This document shows positions 7,138 to 24,138 of a stretch of 27,246 nucleotides of DNA, piece after piece. A program made the translations under genes and the position numbers. The stretch is from assembly GCA_022510885.1 (NCBI GenBank), contig JAFLSP010000008.1, positions 1 to 27,246 on the forward strand, written 5' to 3'. The notes under the pieces are model-generated. The model saw only the letters and a list, made by a program, of their open reading frames with translations. It did no database searches and was not told the origin of the DNA. Every line of letters begins with the position of its first letter. Position 1 is the first letter of the stretch. This DNA is from Treponema sp. (GTDB lineage Bacteria; Spirochaetota; Spirochaetia; Treponematales; Treponemataceae).

Positions 7138-8022
7138 TCAGTTTTGTCGCAGAAAAGTCATCGTTCCCAGTGAGTTGGGGCAGATTCCGGCGGTCATCAG
7201 CGTTATGTCCTGCTCGTGCGGTGTTCCGATGAGCGGCGCGAGCGCGTTTGCGGTGTGGAAGCGCAGCAGCGACTCATCAATGTCGTTTTTCGAGAAGTAT
7301 GCGATTTTCAGCTCGCCAGCCTTGCCGGGTACGCAACAGTTCGGCCGTTGGAACAGCGTGGCACACGCGCGGGCAACTTCGGCATAAATAGTTCGCAGGA
7401 TTTTCTCTTTTGCTCCGTCGTCAAAGAACGGCACGTACTGTATCGCGTTCTCGACTGCCGTCCGCACTGACAGCACGAGCAGCGTCGCTTCCCCCGTCTG
7501 CAAGCCTTTGTTCACCGCCGACTCAACCGCATGGATGTCCTCTGGCTCGGGCTGTGCATACAGGATGTGGATGATGTCGCGCTTGACGACCTCGGAATTA
7601 GCAGAAAGCGTGAAATCGTCGTCTTCCTGCACGAGCATCAGGATGGAATCCTCCAGTTTGATGAAATGCAGGGTCTGCGCCTTGTTCCGAATGTCGTCTG
7701 ACAGGAACTGGTAGAAACTGGCGAACGCAGCCTCCTCTCGCGAGACGCTCTGCCAGCCCGCGTCCGTTTGGAGAGCCACGTTCCAGAACTCGCATGATGA
7801 GTAGGAACGGGCAATCGTCTCCGCATCCAAACCGACTGCTTTTATGATGTAGAACGCATATTCGTCGCGTTGAAACAGGGCAGCATGAGAGAACTGCTGC
7901 TTTGCGCACCATGCGTAGAAGTCGTTCGTTTCAAGTTCGTAGCGATTCACGGCGGCAAGCAGATGTTCGTCCGTTTCCTGCTTGGACTGTTCCATGGCAA
8001 GGATGTGACTCAGCAGACCCAT
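7138..8022 (-). CDS. Unrecognised cytoplasmic protein in the DUF115 operon
   Basis: I do not recognise this 294-residue protein. It has no signal peptide, membrane segment or low-complexity region, and looks like a folded alpha/beta protein. The N-terminal half is helical (HLLAAVNRYELETNDFYAW, then DEYAFYIIKAVGLD). The middle has beta-like ILMLVQEDDDF. The C-terminal part begins with EATLLVLSVRTAVENAI and ends in IAYFSKNDIDESLLRFH and a short hydrophobic tail. The translation start at 8022 shares one base with the preceding stop (TAATG), a sign of translational coupling to the acidic protein upstream. Downstream come the two DUF115 genes, so it may be an accessory factor for them. That link rests only on the operon. 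Codon use resembles the neighbours and nothing suggests recent transfer. Confidence 0.8.
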   Translation of the reverse strand: MGLLSHILAMEQSKQETDEHLLAAVNRYELETNDFYAWCAKQQFSHAALFQRDEYAFYIIKAVGLDAETIARSYSSCEFWNVALQTDAGWQSVSREEAAFASFYQFLSDDIRNKAQTLHFIKLEDSILMLVQEDDDFTLSANSEVVKRDIIHILYAQPEPEDIHAVESAVNKGLQTGEATLLVLSVRTAVENAIQYVPFFDDGAKEKILRTIYAEVARACATLFQRPNCCVPGKAGELKIAYFSKNDIDESLLRFHTANALAPLIGTPHEQDITLMTAGICPNSLGTMTFLRQN

Positions 8023-9743
8023 TACGCAAGCCCCAGTTCTTTAAAGAGTTTTTTATACGCCTCAAACTGCTCTGAATGAGCGAATTCCGTGATTTTGTCC
8101 TCGGGCAGGTTCTCAAGCAGTTGGTCCATATAGGAAAGCACCGACTTGATTTCCTGCTTCAAATCTCCCGAAATTCCGCTGTCCACACCCACCGTTTCTG
8201 CGGCAGAGGACTCCTGCGGCACTGTCGCCGCATCGGTTGCGGGCGGCTCTTCCGCGACAGCGCTTTCAGACGATGGCTCGTCTGCTCCGGCGATTGGCTC
8301 GCTTTCGGATAACGGCGGCGCACTTTCTTCGGAACTGATGGCATCCGTTGTGCTGCTTTCTTCCGTCGTCGCTTCGTCGGTTTTTGGCAGGAAAATTTCA
8401 TTAGGCAAATCTGGTGTTTGAACCTGCGTGGTGGCATCAAAGTTGGCGTCGCCATCATCCGTTTCTACCGGCGGCTCGGCGGCAGCAGGCTCATCCCCTG
8501 TCTCGACCGTTTCCGACTGGAAGTCGGCATTGTTCATGATGTTGGTCATTTCATCGGTGGAAAGGGCGATGGTCTCGTCCTCACCGTTGTCATCAAAGAA
8601 TCCGCCCGTTGTCGGCTCTGTCTGTGCGGGCGCAGGGATGTCGGGAACGTCGTCTGTGGCTTCTACCGGAGTTTCGGCTTCCTTGGCGGCAGGTTCGGAA
8701 ATGCCCTTGGTCTGCATAACGGCAAAATCGTTTTTCAGTTGTGCGATTTCGCCGCGCAATGCGTCAAGCTCGCCCATAATTTTGCTTAAAAGCGAGTCTG
8801 TTGCGGCATCGGGTACGGCTTGCGGTACGGGCGGTTCTGCGGAGACATCGTGCGTTTCGCTTTCAGCAGGGGCAGATACGCTTTCCTGCGGTGCGAACAG
8901 GGGCGGGGCGGGTTCGTCGTCATCGGCCGTGACGGTCATCTCGTAGTCTTCCTGTGCGGCCGCCTGTTTCGTGCCGTCTTTCACCTCGCCTTGGCCTTCC
9001 GTGGAGGCATCGTCAAAGCCGAAGTCCGACAAATCGACTGATTCCTCGTCAGGGGACGCGGGCTGTGCCGCCGGAGCAGGCGCGCTTTCGGCGGGTGGTT
9101 CTGCCGAATCGTCGTCAAAGAACGCACTTGCGTCCATCGTGCCGCCGTCGCCGAGCGCATTGAACATATCGTCAAAGGAATCGGCGTTTGCCTCAGGAGC
9201 GGTTTCCGTCTCTGCGGCAGGGGCAGGCTGCTCGTCTGCCGTGCTGTCGTCAAAGCCGAACGCGCTCAAATCGATAGACTCCGTTCCTGCATCAAGGTCG
9301 TTGCTCGCCGCGTCCGTGGTCGGCTCTTCCGCAGTGTCCGTCGCCGCGCTCTCGGTAGCGAAAATGCCCGCGCCGTCATCAAACGAAAGGTCGATGTCGA
9401 GCGGCACGTCCCCGGTTGGGGTCGTCACGCCCGTGTCGTTCAGTGTGTTCATGCCAAAGTCGGCTGCCGTGTCAGGCTGTGCGGGCGCTTGCTCTTGGCC
9501 ATAGCCTCGGTTTCCCTCTGCCACGCCCTCAAATTCGCCGCCCGCGATGAATTCGTCAAGGGAAATGTCCTCTTCCGTCGCGTCCGCTTCTGCGGAGGCA
9601 GGACCGAGTGCGTCAAGCGACGAAAGGTCGGGAAGTTCCGCATCCAAAGAGAAGTCCGCTGGCGTTGCGTCTGCCGAGTCGGCATCTTTTTTTATCCACA
9701 CGCCGTATTTGTCCAATTCGTCGGTTTTCTCGGAATCACTCAT
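8022..9743 (-). CDS. Acidic, mostly disordered protein with repeated DLS-type short motifs
   Basis: This 573-residue protein is very rich in Asp, Glu, Ala, Ser and Pro and is probably unstructured over most of its length. Short motifs recur: FSLDAELPD (31-39), ISLDEFIAG (60-68), IDLSFDDGA (117-125), IDLSAFGFDD (157-166) and VDLSDFGFDD (236-245), plus TIALSTDEMTNIM near 391-403. A probable coiled coil spans about 317-345 (LLSKIMGELDALRGEIAQLK). The final 48 residues, containing MDQLLENLPEDKI and FEAYKKLFKELGL, look like a small conserved helical domain. The N-terminus contains DKYGVWIKK, a phrase I associate with treponemal proteins. AAGGGG precedes the ATG at 9743. It is the first gene of the operon. 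A scaffold or adaptor role is inference; no enzymatic motif is visible. Confidence 0.85.
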   Translation of the reverse strand: MSDSEKTDELDKYGVWIKKDADSADATPADFSLDAELPDLSSLDALGPASAEADATEEDISLDEFIAGGEFEGVAEGNRGYGQEQAPAQPDTAADFGMNTLNDTGVTTPTGDVPLDIDLSFDDGAGIFATESAATDTAEEPTTDAASNDLDAGTESIDLSAFGFDDSTADEQPAPAAETETAPEANADSFDDMFNALGDGGTMDASAFFDDDSAEPPAESAPAPAAQPASPDEESVDLSDFGFDDASTEGQGEVKDGTKQAAAQEDYEMTVTADDDEPAPPLFAPQESVSAPAESETHDVSAEPPVPQAVPDAATDSLLSKIMGELDALRGEIAQLKNDFAVMQTKGISEPAAKEAETPVEATDDVPDIPAPAQTEPTTGGFFDDNGEDETIALSTDEMTNIMNNADFQSETVETGDEPAAAEPPVETDDGDANFDATTQVQTPDLPNEIFLPKTDEATTEESSTTDAISSEESAPPLSESEPIAGADEPSSESAVAEEPPATDAATVPQESSAAETVGVDSGISGDLKQEIKSVLSYMDQLLENLPEDKITEFAHSEQFEAYKKLFKELGLA

Positions 9744-9822
9744 GTCTTTCCCCTTCGCGCCCGTGCGGCATCGGTCTCTCTTTTCAGTATCGGCAACGTA
9801 TGGCGCAAACTATATCGTATTC

Positions 9823-9851
9823 ATTGTACACGACATGGACGAAAAAGTCTA
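9823..9851 (-). promoter_or_regulatory. Candidate promoter of the five-gene minus operon
   Basis: On the minus strand TAGACT (-35, 9851-9846) is followed after 17 bp by TACAAT (-10, 9828-9823). Transcription would begin near 9816, giving a leader of about 73 nt before the ATG at 9743. Each box matches the sigma-70 consensus moderately. A second AT-rich TATAGT lies about 14 bp downstream. Confidence 0.45.
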
Positions 9852-9910
9852 TTGCCTTTCCCGCAAATATCACGTCGGGTGCGCTGCAAGGCAGGCGGCA
9901 AGGTGGAGGA

Positions 9911-9989
9911 GACTCTCTGCGCACGGAGAGCGGGCAAGACCTGCGCCGTTACTCGGCTCTCCGCGCACGGAGAACGGACTCTCCGTGCG
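9911..9989. repeat. Inverted/direct repeats of CGCACGGAGA
   Basis: CGCACGGAGAG occurs at 9920-9930, CGCACGGAGAA at 9964-9974, and its exact complement CTCTCCGTGCG at 9979-9989. TCTCCG (9958-9963) and CGGAGA (9968-9973) form a hairpin with loop CGCA. CCGTT (9946-9950) and AACGG (9973-9977) could close an outer stem around it. The cluster abuts the 27-bp hairpin array. Confidence 0.75.
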
Positions 9990-9990
9990 A

Positions 9991-10118
9991 CCGTTAATGG
10001 GACTAACGGAAGCCGTTCCGTTAAGGAGCTTAACGGAGGTCAGTCCGTTAATGACAGTAACGGAAAATGCTTCGTTAAGACCATTAACGGAAGGTCACGC
10101 CGTTAAGGAGGCCGACGG
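9991..10118. repeat. Five-unit 27-bp-period palindrome array (CCGTTA-N7-TAACGG)
   Basis: Left arms CCGTTA start at 9991, 10018, 10045, 10072 (TCGTTA) and 10100. Right arms TAACGG start at 10004, 10031 (10030 with an extra T), 10058, 10085 and, degenerate as CGACGG, at 10113. The arms are conserved while the 7-bp centres (ATGGGAC, AGGAGCT, ATGACAG, AGACCAT, AGGAGGC) and the 8-9 bp spacers vary. The second unit extends to a 9-bp stem, TCCGTTAAG/CTTAACGGA, with a 3-nt loop. It lies just upstream of the yicC promoter. Function unknown: tandem operators or RNA hairpins are both possible. Confidence 0.9.
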
Positions 10119-10197
10119 AATACGGCGGTCGCGGAATGCCGCAAAAGGGGACATTGCGATAAAATTGCCGCGTGGCATGGCTTTTTTTCGCGTGTTG

Positions 10198-10206
10198 TGG
10201 TATACT
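10198..10206 (+). promoter_or_regulatory. Extended -10 promoter of yicC
   Basis: TGGTATACT is an extended -10 element (TGn plus TATACT). No clear -35 is seen at 16-18 bp upstream; the region is T-rich. The -10 ends 6 nt before the yicC ATG, so the expected start of transcription falls on the initiation codon itself, predicting a leaderless message. Confidence 0.55.
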
Positions 10207-10212
10207 GTCGGT

Positions 10213-11082
10213 ATGCATTCGATGACGGGATACGGTTTTGCGGAAGCCGTTGTGGAGGATACGCAGGTCAGCGTGGAGATAAAGTCGGTCAACAGCCGCT
10301 TCCTTGACTTGTCCGTGGGCCTGCCCCCTTTCCTGAATCCGCTGGAGTCGCGCATTCGCAAGGCGGTCGGAGAAAAGGTCGCCCGCGGCAAGATTGACGT
10401 GACGGTGCGTGTGCATGACGCTTCGCCTGCCGCCATAGTGAGCGCAGACCCTGCCGCCGCGCGTGCGTATTACGATGCCATCGCGCAGGTTGCCGCCGCG
10501 CTCGGAAAGCCTGCGGACGACATCCCGCTCGCGCTTGTCATCCAGCAGGAGGGCGTGCTGAACGTCACGCGCTGTTTTGACGCGGAGGCATGCTGGAAGA
10601 AAATCGAGGGCGTGTTTGAGGCGGTGCTCGCGCAGTTCCTTGCCGACCGCGCGCGCGAGGGCGAGAACCTCCGCGCGGACTTGCTCGCCAAACTTGACGC
10701 GCTCGACGGCTGCGCCGCATTTTTTGCGGACTGGCAGCCGCGCATGGAGGCACGCTTCCGGGAGATGATTGCCCAAAAGTTCGCCGACTTGCTCGGCGAG
10801 CGGGCGGACGAGAACCGCATTATGCAGGAGACTGCCGCGATGCTCGTCCGCTACACGATAAACGAAGAAATCATCCGGCTGCAAAGTCATCTTGCCGCGC
10901 TCCGCAAGGCGTTCGACGAGGAAGGCGCGCCCGGCAAGCGCATCGACTTCATCTGTCAGGAGGCGAACCGGGAAATCAACACGATTGGCAGCAAGAATCA
11001 GTTTACGGAGGTGGGGCAGATGGTCATCGCCGCGAAGGATGCCCTTGAGAATATCCGCGAGCAGTGCAGGAATGTGGAGTAG
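10213..11082 (+). CDS. yicC: YicC/YloC-family endoribonuclease
   Basis: This 289-residue protein is a YicC/YloC family member. These act as endoribonucleases or RNase adaptors in RNA turnover in the cytoplasm. The start MHSMTGYGFA matches the family's hallmark N-terminus (SMTGxG), followed by VEIKSVNSRFLDLSVGLP. The C-terminus has DFICQEANREINTIGSKN, the conserved metal-binding/DUF1732 end of the family. The length is normal. An open frame extends far upstream through the palindrome array, but family homology begins only here, and ATG at 10213 fits the usual few residues before SMTG. No Shine-Dalgarno is present; the -10 box is 6 nt upstream. It is followed after 6 nt by the cytidylate kinase gene, and the two are probably cotranscribed. 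Identification is secure; RNA targets are unknown. Confidence 0.93.
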   Translation: MHSMTGYGFAEAVVEDTQVSVEIKSVNSRFLDLSVGLPPFLNPLESRIRKAVGEKVARGKIDVTVRVHDASPAAIVSADPAAARAYYDAIAQVAAALGKPADDIPLALVIQQEGVLNVTRCFDAEACWKKIEGVFEAVLAQFLADRAREGENLRADLLAKLDALDGCAAFFADWQPRMEARFREMIAQKFADLLGERADENRIMQETAAMLVRYTINEEIIRLQSHLAALRKAFDEEGAPGKRIDFICQEANREINTIGSKNQFTEVGQMVIAAKDALENIREQCRNVE

Positions 11083-22356: not shown

Positions 22357-24102
22357 TCATTTGCTTAATTGCGTCAAATCTGTTTTATTCAGCAGAATCG
22401 GCGTACCAGTCGCTGACGTGACGATGATGCCTCCCTGGGTGACAGTAATCGGTGTAGACGGTCTGACGCGCACGGGCGACTTGAGTTGGTTTTCGAGTTC
22501 TGCGTTGAACTTGCCCACCACGAAAGCATCACTGTCCTGTATAACGCAGTAGTAACTGTTGCCATCCTGCACGAGCACGGAATTCGCGGCAATCGTCTCG
22601 TTGCTTTCCTTGATGATTTCCAAAGTATCCTTATCCAAATGGACAAGTTTGACCGTGCCGTTGCCGACATTCTCACCCGCAATGGCAATGAGCGTGCTGT
22701 CGTTTTCGTAGAATGTGCGGCTTTGGATGACGGTGACCGGCGATTTCTTTATCAGTTCGCCCGTTGCGGTGTTCATGCGTACTATTGCAGAGCGCTGTCC
22801 CAAGTCGTCCTCTGCGGTGAGACCATACACACTCGTTGACCTGCCGTTCCTTTCTTGCTGCTCGATGACCTGCTGCTGGTCTTGTGCGATGGATGAGCGT
22901 TCTTGCTGTGCCTCACTGCGTTTTTGGTCGGCGGTGTTCTGTGCGCTGTCGGCTTTCTGCTGCTGCTCGTCGGCCTTCTGCTGCTGCTCGTCGGCCTTCT
23001 GCTGCTGCTCGTCGGCCTTCTGCTGTTCCTGTGCCGCCTGCTGTTGCTGTGCATTTGCATCAGACTGCGCTGCTGCCGCTTCCTGCTGTTTTGTATTTGC
23101 GTCGGCTGTTGCTGCGCGGGCATCTTCCTGCGCCTGTTTGTCAGCAGGATTCTCATTGGCTTTTTTCTGAGCGTCGTCCGCTGTTTTCTTTGCATCATCA
23201 GCTTTCTTTGCAGCATCCTCCGCGGCTTTCTTTGCGGCATCAGCTTTTGCTTTTTCCTCGTCGGCTTTCTGTTGCGCTTCTGCCGCTTTTGCCTTTTCCT
23301 CGTCGGCCTTCTTCTGGGCTTCGGCTGCCTTTGCTTTTTCTTCGTCGGCCTTTGCCTGTTCTGCGGCTGCCTGTTCTGCCGCGTTGTCGGCCTCGCGTTC
23401 CTTTATATCGACCATGCCCTTGCGGTCATCGATGCCCTTGTCATCGTCCTCCTGCATCGACTCAATCACTTCCCGGTCGGAGATGACCGAGGTGTCCACC
23501 GTGCTCAGCCCGCCGTTGATGTCGTAGAGCGGGATGACCAGCTGCGTCCTGCCCGGCCACTCGCGGTAGGAGAGCGCGATGCCAACGCTGTCGGCGGTCA
23601 GGTTGTCGGTGACGATGGTCTTGTATTTTTCGCGGAACATATCGAGCCGTCCGCGGTACACGGCGTTGTAAACGGTGACGAACGTCGCCACGACGTCCGC
23701 GTCCTGCCGCGAGTAGCCGTATGCCGCCGTTAAGTAGGCGGAGATAATTCTGCGCACGTTGGTGATATGGTCAACGATGGCGTCAGGCCCGATAATGAGA
23801 ATATCCGCGTCGAGTTTACTGGTTTCCGCAGGGTCGATGGCGTGGATGACCGCATATTTGGGCGCGTAGCCGTAGGAACCCGCCTGGTCAACGTTCTGCG
23901 CGACCATGTTGCCGATGTTGGAGCCAATCGCGCGGATTTCTTCAATCGTGTTGATGACCGAATGCGGCCCGACGTAGTTCTCGAACACCACGTCGCTGCC
24001 GCTGATGCTTCTGATTTCGTCCTCATCGACTTCTACGGCAAACGTGCCGCAGACGAGCGCGAGCGCGGAGACGAGTGCGCATAGGATTTTCCTGCTATTC
24101 AT
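22357..24102 (-). CDS. P83/100-family antigen with long coiled coil
   Basis: This 581-residue exported protein is of the spirochaete P83/100 family (Borrelia p83/100, treponemal homologues). A signal peptide (LVSALALVCGTFA) is cleaved at about 22. The N-terminal domain to about 215 has the family's wording, for example ENYVGPHSVINTIEEIRAIG, then DADVVATFVTVYNAVYRG. About 200 residues of Ala/Lys/Glu/Gln-rich coiled coil follow, with heptads such as QKADEQQ, and a C-terminal beta-rich domain of about 150 residues (VTVIQSRTFYENDSTLIAI) closes it. ATG at 24102 has AAGGAG; the reading to 24117 adds five residues without need. The location is probably the periplasm or the protoplasmic cylinder surface. 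Function is unknown; homologues are strong antigens. Its promoter lies in the end of the upstream gene. Confidence 0.9.
   Translation of the reverse strand: MNSRKILCALVSALALVCGTFAVEVDEDEIRSISGSDVVFENYVGPHSVINTIEEIRAIGSNIGNMVAQNVDQAGSYGYAPKYAVIHAIDPAETSKLDADILIIGPDAIVDHITNVRRIISAYLTAAYGYSRQDADVVATFVTVYNAVYRGRLDMFREKYKTIVTDNLTADSVGIALSYREWPGRTQLVIPLYDINGGLSTVDTSVISDREVIESMQEDDDKGIDDRKGMVDIKEREADNAAEQAAAEQAKADEEKAKAAEAQKKADEEKAKAAEAQQKADEEKAKADAAKKAAEDAAKKADDAKKTADDAQKKANENPADKQAQEDARAATADANTKQQEAAAAQSDANAQQQQAAQEQQKADEQQQKADEQQQKADEQQQKADSAQNTADQKRSEAQQERSSIAQDQQQVIEQQERNGRSTSVYGLTAEDDLGQRSAIVRMNTATGELIKKSPVTVIQSRTFYENDSTLIAIAGENVGNGTVKLVHLDKDTLEIIKESNETIAANSVLVQDGNSYYCVIQDSDAFVVGKFNAELENQLKSPVRVRPSTPITVTQGGIIVTSATGTPILLNKTDLTQLSK
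22949..23025. repeat. 21-bp tandem repeat in the P83/100 coiled coil
   Basis: TCGGCCTTCTGCTGCTGCTC plus G starts at 22949 (one mismatch), 22970 and 22991, with a partial copy at 23012. It encodes the heptad QKADEQQ. The period is a multiple of 3, so copy-number change would keep the frame and alter coil length by one heptad. Confidence 0.9.
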
Positions 24103-24138
24103 ATCTGCTCCTTGCATATTACGTGCAATATAATCTGT

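Follow-up and report, generated by a model that had tools for sequence, protein, structure and literature searches.

The closest described systems to the element presented here are BOX and BrickBuilt, to which we liken it by arrangement only and under neither of which we file it. According to the passages available of the papers cited, BOX elements of Streptococcus pneumoniae have the structure boxA-boxB(n)-boxC and show an excess between convergent genes but only a slight one between divergent genes (PMC3049150), while BrickBuilt elements of Porphyromonas gingivalis (19 listed in one strain) consist of 23-mers without spacers, accompanied by a leader and a tail with small inverted-repeat ends, and some of them are reported by their authors to act as promoters (PMC4596501). 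REP/BIME and REPIN sequences are small extragenic palindromes, sometimes found in arrays (PMC3733652, same scope). According to an inverted-repeat survey of all bacterial genomes, it is within annotated repeat regions that inverted repeats of T. brennaborense reach their highest relative frequency (PMC10434271); the passages of that paper available to us do not describe the CCGTTA-N7-TAACGG element that is the subject of this report. A search of the open-access literature found no description of the element in treponemes, which is weak evidence that no such description exists. Plasmid centromere and iteron arrays such as sopC are tandem direct repeats, each containing an inverted repeat to which a protein dimer binds; the element described here differs from these in having several array loci per genome, and no partition genes were noticed beside its array.

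The window (i.e., the whole stretch of DNA analyzed, 27,246 nucleotides) belongs to contig C315 of a Treponema draft genome with 336 contigs and 88% completeness (G000). A preliminary description of this DNA had reported five CCGTTA-N7-TAACGG palindromes upstream of yicC, all of which we recovered. These five tandem 19-bp dyads (module A, 9991 to 10118) start at 9991, 10018, 10045, 10072 and 10100, i.e., with spacings of 27, 27, 27 and 28 (period 27-28). Units 1 to 3 are perfect, unit 4 has one mismatch (TCGTTA), and the unit at 10100, which is the most degenerate of the five and lies farthest from module B, has two (right arm CGACGG). The array forms the end portion of a larger composite element between the two genes (approx. 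9913 to 10118), absent from the preliminary description, in which the tandem dyads are joined to GGAGAG/CTCTCC inverted repeats. Two such inverted-repeat units occupy the side of the array from 9913 to 9990, so that the order on the minus strand is A (dyads), B, C; module A is assigned to the minus strand only as the direction in which A reads into B, the dyads themselves being symmetric. Module B (GGAGAG...GGAGAG; 9957 to 9990, minus strand) adjoins the array and follows the last dyad on the minus strand, as it does in other copies, and contains a 10-bp inverted repeat (CGCACGGAGA/TCTCCGTGCG) at 9964 to 9989. Module C (9913 to 9956, minus strand) closes the element on the side away from the array with another GGAGAG/CTCTCC inverted-repeat unit; its CTCTCTGCGCACGGAGAGCGG (9913 to 9933) is 90% identical to 9957 to 9977.

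With up to two mismatches allowed, six dyad matches were found in the window as compared to 0.46 expected (largest number in 100 shuffles: 3); the sixth, at 8704, is isolated, has two mismatches and lies outside the array. In the whole draft genome, exact CCGTTA-N7-TAACGG occurs 8 times per strand (reversed control: 0), clustered on contigs C35 (3 units), C315 (3 units) and C322 (2 units), and every one of the 9 zero-mismatch CGTTA-N7-TAACG matches falls within these three arrays. When one mismatch was allowed, the reversed control was more common than the pattern (62 and 22 matches, respectively), and what is unusual is thus only the combination of exact arms and tandem arrangement; lone loose matches are meaningless. 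Contigs C35 and C322 carry two further copies of the element, both arranged like the window copy. When window positions 9895 to 10135 were compared to the genome at the DNA level, the C322 copy was recovered at E = 3.8e-22 (78% over 125 bp, window 9914 to 10038) and the C35 copy at E = 0.0014; the other 18 short matches listed had E values of 0.0014 or worse, and those inspected were unrelated by eye. Direct comparison with the window copy gave 162 bp at 72% for C35 and 125 bp at 78% for C322, the likeness ending with the element in both.

The search of the genome and of related treponemes with a covariance model, which the preliminary description had proposed, yielded relatives of the element in addition to these two copies. 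A covariance model (R1), comprising the last A unit and module B, was built from 11 copies including that of the window (9957 to 10010, minus strand, E = 1.1e-11); the copies used to build R1 match it by construction. R1 matches (E ≤ 0.01, with stricter filters and the best 28 candidates per genome scored) were found in at least 11 of 200 genomes of the genus, with at least 1 to 4 matches each. Inspection of the loci showed dyad arrays in six of these 11 genomes (G000, G011, G082, G133, G157 and G212) and module-B-like repeats but no array in the other five (G096, G132, G175, G193 and G213). Three R1 matches (G133 C24 [L142], G193 C9 [L168] and G132 C2:2506 [L169]) look like coding chance and were excluded as copies; the first of these still stands in the tally of 11, and G133 has another, real copy. 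Among 12 chosen genomes searched separately, a T. brennaborense metagenome-assembled genome (MAG) had 15 R1 matches at E ≤ 1, six of them below 0.002; nine of its windows were inspected, including these six.

A typical copy consists of a run of 1 to approx. 7 nineteen-bp dyads (A), followed by GGAGAG- or GATGAGA-type repeats (B, C). In other species these repeats surround a TTTAAAC-like core; in all three copies of the present genome, the alignment shows TTTAAAC of module B replaced, with CTCCGTGCG in its place. The order A then B was observed in copies of G000, G011, G082, G212, G133, G157 and the T. brennaborense MAG, the exceptions being one array-only copy (G082 C3b) and the B-only copies in G193, G096, G175, G132 and G213. 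Dispersed intergenic copies with a common module order are what would be expected of a BOX-like modular repeat, and it is well supported that Treponemataceae possess a composite repeat dispersed among intergenic regions.

Short-pattern searches were compared to reversed controls. The module B pattern was found in 6 of 200 genomes of the genus and its reversed control in none of the 200. Exact tandem dyads occurred in 4 of 200 genomes, including one match inside an apparent coding region (G053), which is by eye a coding coincidence, and approx. 20 genomes had 1 to 3 control matches; in an earlier, smaller scan, the dyad pattern was found in 4 and the reversed control in 10 of 39 genomes. A relaxed tandem GTTA-N7-TAAC pair was present in 8 of 200 genomes (the six array carriers as well as G122 and G209), as was its reversed control (8 of 200), and an order-wide sample that included the genus gave 10 and 11 of 390 genomes, respectively. 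Counted by genomes, short tandem patterns are therefore no better than reversed controls; they are better only in the number of matches per genome (2 to 8 for the relaxed pattern as compared to 1 to 2 for the control, which had none in the 8 array genomes). As the controls are not zero, single matches mean nothing, and our claim rests on repeated matches, on module B and on the loci inspected. Three single dyads (L012, L013 and L011) were set aside, two of them being terminator-like or coding by eye. In a scan of genome contigs, 10 of 13 matching stretches lacked the second module and were judged by eye to be chance, while the remaining three (L073, L076 and L080) are treponeme elements. The 216-bp element had no match in phage or plasmid records, and two viral pattern matches (L083 and L222) are chance by eye.

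Compared by arrangement rather than by sequence, and with the published systems as given in the passages cited above, the treponeme element resembles BOX in being a short modular intergenic repeat with inverted-repeat structure and one module in variable number. It differs from BOX in that the iterated module stands at one end and consists of a dyad with strict N7 spacing, in that there are far fewer copies per genome, and in that most callable copies (9 of 15, based on ORF lists) lie between divergent genes. With BrickBuilt it has in common a dispersed, MITE-like intergenic occurrence, tandem units of approx. 23 to 27 nucleotides in variable number and conserved end modules alongside; in contrast to BrickBuilt, its units consist of a dyad and a variable spacer, and terminal inverted repeats and target duplication were not found. 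Unlike REP/BIME, the units stand in tandem and copy number is low: with at least 1 to 4 R1 matches per matching genus genome, the tens to hundreds of copies of REP/BIME are not reached, which sets the element apart from most REP and MITE families. No REP-type GTAG/CGTC tag was noticed by eye in the listed units.

The internal geometry of the dyads was assessed in 25 element windows (9,912 bp), which include three orthologue pairs and thus represent 22 distinct loci; eight of these windows came from a dyad pattern and the other 17 from the module B pattern or the covariance model. Among spacings from 3 to 12, GTTA-Nn-TAAC occurred 69 times with N7 and once with N8, and none was found with N3 to N6 or N9 to N12; in the 17 windows found without an exact dyad pattern, the numbers were 44 (N7) and 1 (N8). 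Two-fold symmetry with such a fixed half-site spacing is what would be expected of the operator of a dimeric helix-turn-helix protein; the half-site centres are 11 bp apart, i.e., one turn of B-DNA. The gaps between neighboring dyads, on the other hand, ranged from 8 to 15 (one was 19), with 11 mostly in T. brennaborense, 12 mostly in the present genome and G212, 13 to 14 in G011 and 8 to 13 in G157. Dyad period is mostly 26 in T. brennaborense, 27 here and 23 to 30 elsewhere, and the helical phasing that had been suggested from the 27-bp period was rejected on this variability. Spacing that is rigid within a dyad but loose between dyads is compatible with dyads being recognized individually and not with a fixed helical phase of the array.

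Conservation was followed by a phased walk, which proceeded outward from the exact dyad nearest module B, took the best of 5 offsets and stopped below 5 of 8 core letters; it ended after one unit in G157 and G082 C3b, the periods of which lie outside its window. Among 36 T. brennaborense units, 28 matched at 8 of 8 core letters, 4 at 7, 1 at 6 and 3 at 5, as compared to a most frequent best score of 3 in shuffled sequence; as the walk begins at an exact dyad and keeps only units with at least 5 letters, conservation is somewhat overstated. Mean pairwise identity in these units was 0.90 for the core, 0.72 for the outer arms, 0.38 for the centre and 0.32 for the spacer, and 0.98, 0.70, 0.53 and 0.32, respectively, in 33 other units. 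The earlier statement that arms are conserved while centres and spacers vary thus holds across 69 phased units. In five orthologous units of the sister species G082 and G212, none of 40 core positions and 6 of 55 other positions had changed (P = 0.038, Fisher's exact test; a small sample and a borderline value). Core invariance is in part a matter of ascertainment, given the limit of one core mismatch, the phased walk and the A unit inside R1. The GTTA/TAAC core looks constrained.

A functionless tandem duplication of a palindrome would be compatible with the variation in unit number (1 to approx. 7 per copy) and with the decay of some outer units; the distal unit is more decayed in several arrays, an observation confounded by the way in which copies were found. 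Yet spacers and centres have for the most part diverged and the cores have not, at several loci and in several species, and arrays are mostly joined to the same second module. The preliminary description had listed a lack of other copies among the findings that would mark the array as a chance minisatellite; two more copies in the genome and further ones in other treponemes refute both, and we regard neutral duplication as scarcely credible. Copies with a common order have a GTTA-N7-TAAC core that is nearly invariant, whereas their outer arms, centres and spacers drift. We consider it somewhat probable (roughly 57%) that the element is a dispersed BOX/BrickBuilt-like repeat whose dyads are predicted sites of a dimeric DNA-binding protein, with yicC only a neighbor. 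Each dyad would then be bound by one protein dimer, with half-sites one helical turn (11 bp) apart, and the array would load several dimers onto intergenic DNA. Copies may have spread by non-autonomous transposition or by duplication, and the protein bound to them may act in regulation, DNA packing or transposition.

Both strands of the array fold far better than shuffled sequences (z = -5.45 and -7.00), and a structural nucleic-acid role is possible in view of this folding; strong folding follows, however, from palindromes in tandem and is by itself no proof of RNA. Compensatory changes were sought in 70 of 74 units (distinct per genome, without N, at most one core mismatch), after two isolated one-mismatch matches had been dropped. 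Pair 1-19 was formed in 48 of 70 units as compared to 47.9 in within-genome shuffles, and pair 2-18 in 41 of 70 as compared to 41.1; none of the pairs 1-19, 2-18 and 7-13 pairs more often than in the shuffles, and the core pairs hardly vary and are thus uninformative on compensation. Selection for hairpin pairing is not supported by this pooled shuffle test, which shows nothing, though some G157 units look compensated by eye. As arm variation is uncompensated, the dyads have the symmetry of two half-sites independent of one another and not of a maintained stem. The earlier proposal of selection on the paired arms can be retained for the arms and mostly for their GTTA/TAAC core, which look constrained in many copies from several species, but not for the pairing itself.

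The gene to the right of the array is yicC (10213 to 11082, plus strand; YicC-like_N, PF03755, 8.6e-40; YicC-like_C, PF08340, 5.2e-36), and that to the left is a divergent gene (8022 to 9743, minus strand) encoding an acidic low-complexity protein of 573 amino acids without a Pfam family at E 0.001. A promoter scan found one promoter-like sequence for the divergent gene (TAGACT-17-TACAAT; 9823 to 9851, minus strand; 0.3 expected). For yicC, the likely -10 hexamer, recognized by eye, is TATACT at 10201 to 10206 (plus strand), preceded by TGG; TGGTATACT ends at 10206, 6 bp before the yicC ATG at 10213. This candidate is absent from the list of the promoter scan, which demands a -35 hexamer. Its position implies that the yicC mRNA is likely (near) leaderless and starts downstream of the array. 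With likely promoters on either side, the array is probably transcribed from neither. The yicC frame is open from 9547 to 11082 (plus strand) straight through the array, a point likewise absent from the preliminary description, where 27 bp equal 9 codons, and a gene caller could thus give YicC a false N-terminal extension.

Matches to yicC were found in 57 of 59 genomes, and 30 loci, including that of the present genome, were compared. In none of 29 relatives did the region upstream of yicC, covered to a length of up to 600 bp, contain a dyad (at least 470 bp available in 28, and 43 bp in L111). The context of yicC differs among relatives (often after a murC-like gene, by eye), and the yicC loci therefore yielded no empty site. 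YicC autoregulation was rejected on account of these dyad-free upstream regions, and they tell, together with the unrelated genes beside other copies, against the link to YicC that had been drawn; yicC is probably a neighbor and not a partner of the array, the association being incidental. A chain of RNA hairpins transcribed from the array and serving as a target, e.g., of YicC, would draw on the strong predicted folding of both strands. This reading is very improbable in view of the lack of association with yicC in relatives, the likely yicC -10 (by eye) downstream of the array, the divergent promoter pointing away from it, the failure to find compensatory changes, a rigid loop length that is not a requirement of hairpins, and the absence of Rfam matches in the window at gathering scores.

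Other copies of the element adjoin unrelated genes, including those for a family 3 solute-binding protein, CobW, ZIP, a pectate-lyase-like protein and a type I methylase and, by eye, ABC transporter, MnmA-like, SecG-like and MGMT-like genes. Orientation could be called for 15 of 22 loci, of which 9 were divergent, 5 tandem and 1 convergent; these are raw counts outside the basis of our overall judgment, taken from ORF lists and not formal gene calls, and one divergent locus has a tRNA on its left and another a right-hand gene recognized by eye. XRE-type helix-turn-helix (HTH) genes flank 5 of the 22 loci (G000 C322, G212 C12, G157 C153, and L163 and L159 of T. brennaborense); four of the proteins were confirmed by Pfam, and the fifth (G157) is a homologue of that of G212. 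Two of these loci carry CapH/CapP-like pairs (PADLOC capH 2.3e-6 and capP 7.7e-10 in G212; capP 2.6e-11 in T. brennaborense). In G212 and G157, the array and the XRE-peptidase pair have stayed together over 2.2 kb, with an identity of 61%. G133 has a type III methylase approx. 1.7 kb from the array. A resemblance to HsdM beside T. brennaborense L163 was discarded, as it was seen by eye and concerns only 23 residues before the contig end, without a Pfam match; Pfam likewise gave nothing for the ORFs tested in L160 and L164. Separately, DUF4469 proteins occur within approx. 2 kb of four array copies: two, with a faint HU-like N-terminus below the Pfam cut-off, at G212:C12 (L218, 241 to 1005) and G157:C153 (L220, 3540 to 4337), and two assigned by sequence resemblance, at G082:C3 (L172) and G011:C155 (L016).

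The XRE neighborhood of the arrays is a lead, and it bears on a reading in which yicC, the divergent gene or the XRE-type regulators beside several copies would be controlled through the array as a multi-site operator. Such local regulation would fit the position of the array, on either side of which lies a likely promoter directed away from it (one by eye, one by scan), the XRE-type genes at 5 of 22 loci with their two CapH/CapP-like pairs, and the retention of array and XRE-peptidase pair in G212 and G157. The neighbors differ, however, from copy to copy, and yicC lacks upstream dyads in the 29 relatives; the XRE proteins are unlike each other, with different best Pfam HTH models, though the dyad core is identical, and G212 C12 and G157 C153 are not independent cases. 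We therefore hold local regulation to be quite improbable. The multi-operator proposed earlier survives as a possible protein-bound array, which is close to our preferred reading, but not as a switch specific to yicC.

Most copies that are not orthologues are homologous only as far as the element reaches, and pairwise comparison of copies identified no common terminal inverted repeat or target duplication. Two copies of G082 (C3 and C23a) agree at 220 of 225 positions over the element and the DNA that follows; they are alike from approx. 20 bp before the dyad into the next gene, with 2.1 kb at 65% to the end of the compared stretch, and their near-identity indicates that one is a recent copy, or the product of conversion, of the other. 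Lipoprotein-like genes at G082:C3 and C23 and G212:C29 (and, for the first bases, G212:C7) have the element, promoter region and gene start in common, as if duplicated together in a cassette bordered on the left by the repeat; that of G082 C3 has List_Bact repeats and a pectate-lyase-like domain. G157 C153 and G212 C12 have 2.2 kb in common, ending within the array, and between G082 C23b and G212 C33 the element and downstream DNA are kept while intergenic DNA to the left of the array can be aligned only with difficulty. The element may be located where exchanged blocks end; alternatively, this may reflect no more than a faster drift of intergenic DNA. A clean empty site was not found, the flanking genes of G212 C12 having no DNA match in the G082 draft.

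These observations bear on a selfish, non-autonomous repeat, in which the dyads and the B/C inverted repeats would be recognized only by a transposase or recombinase that would copy the repeat, and would have no host function. The end of homology at the element, the patchy occurrence (R1 in at least 11 of 200 genomes) and the recent duplication or conversion in G082 are in keeping with this possibility, and the last of these raised it and slightly lowered the protein-site statement. On the other hand, copies are few, those at G212 C7, C29 and C33 have orthologues in G082 and can thus be stable, the preponderance of divergent over convergent loci (9 and 1 of 15 callable) is unlike that of pneumococcal repeats, and phage and plasmid records hold no match. 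Overall, we regard a purely selfish repeat as unlikely, though as the chief alternative.

Other repeats were encountered in the same genomes. A second array class, GTTAC-N5-GTAAC (e.g., GTTACACAAGGTAAC), mostly with a period of 23 to 24 bp, has no CC..GG outer arms and, by eye, no module B; it is present in the genome of the window (G000:C11:17-54 and C304:18650-18687) and at G011:C104 (L177), G122:C10 (L178), G133:C28 (L188), G209:C1 (L182), G303 (L194) and G453 (L195). G011:C122 (L171, approx. 800 to 1300), an R1 match not counted as a copy, is a different kind of array with, by eye, TTTGTT..AACAAA units approx. 22 bp apart and CATTGCAATG units approx. 23 bp apart, and has a Vsr-like gene on the same stretch. 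Two GTTAACAGTGTTAAC-type dyads upstream of a TetR-family-like regulator gene in G307:C106 (L192, by eye) are probably an ordinary operator pair. In the window itself, 21/42-bp tandem repeats at 22927 to 23372 lie inside a gene (22357 to 24117, minus strand) and encode an Ala/Gln/Lys-rich coiled-coil-like stretch.

A broader and speculative proposal, which we think doubtful, is that Treponemataceae possess several families of tandem short-dyad arrays (CCGTTA-N7-TAACGG, GTTAC-N5-GTAAC with a period of 23 to 24 bp, and others), which would be dispersed platforms for the loading of an unrecognized DNA-binding protein that acts as a dimer. Such arrays would frequently be placed between divergent promoters and next to XRE/metallopeptidase and restriction-modification loci, would mark the edges of exchanged or duplicated gene blocks, and would represent a new chromosomal protein-array system. 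The repeat family is now defined by a testable rule, namely a rigid 15-bp dyad core, loose spacing and a recurrent partner module. Should the dyads be bound by a transposase, the family would be a spirochaete element similar to BOX and BrickBuilt; should they be bound by a host protein, it would represent a multi-site protein-array system for which we found no description in the literature searched.
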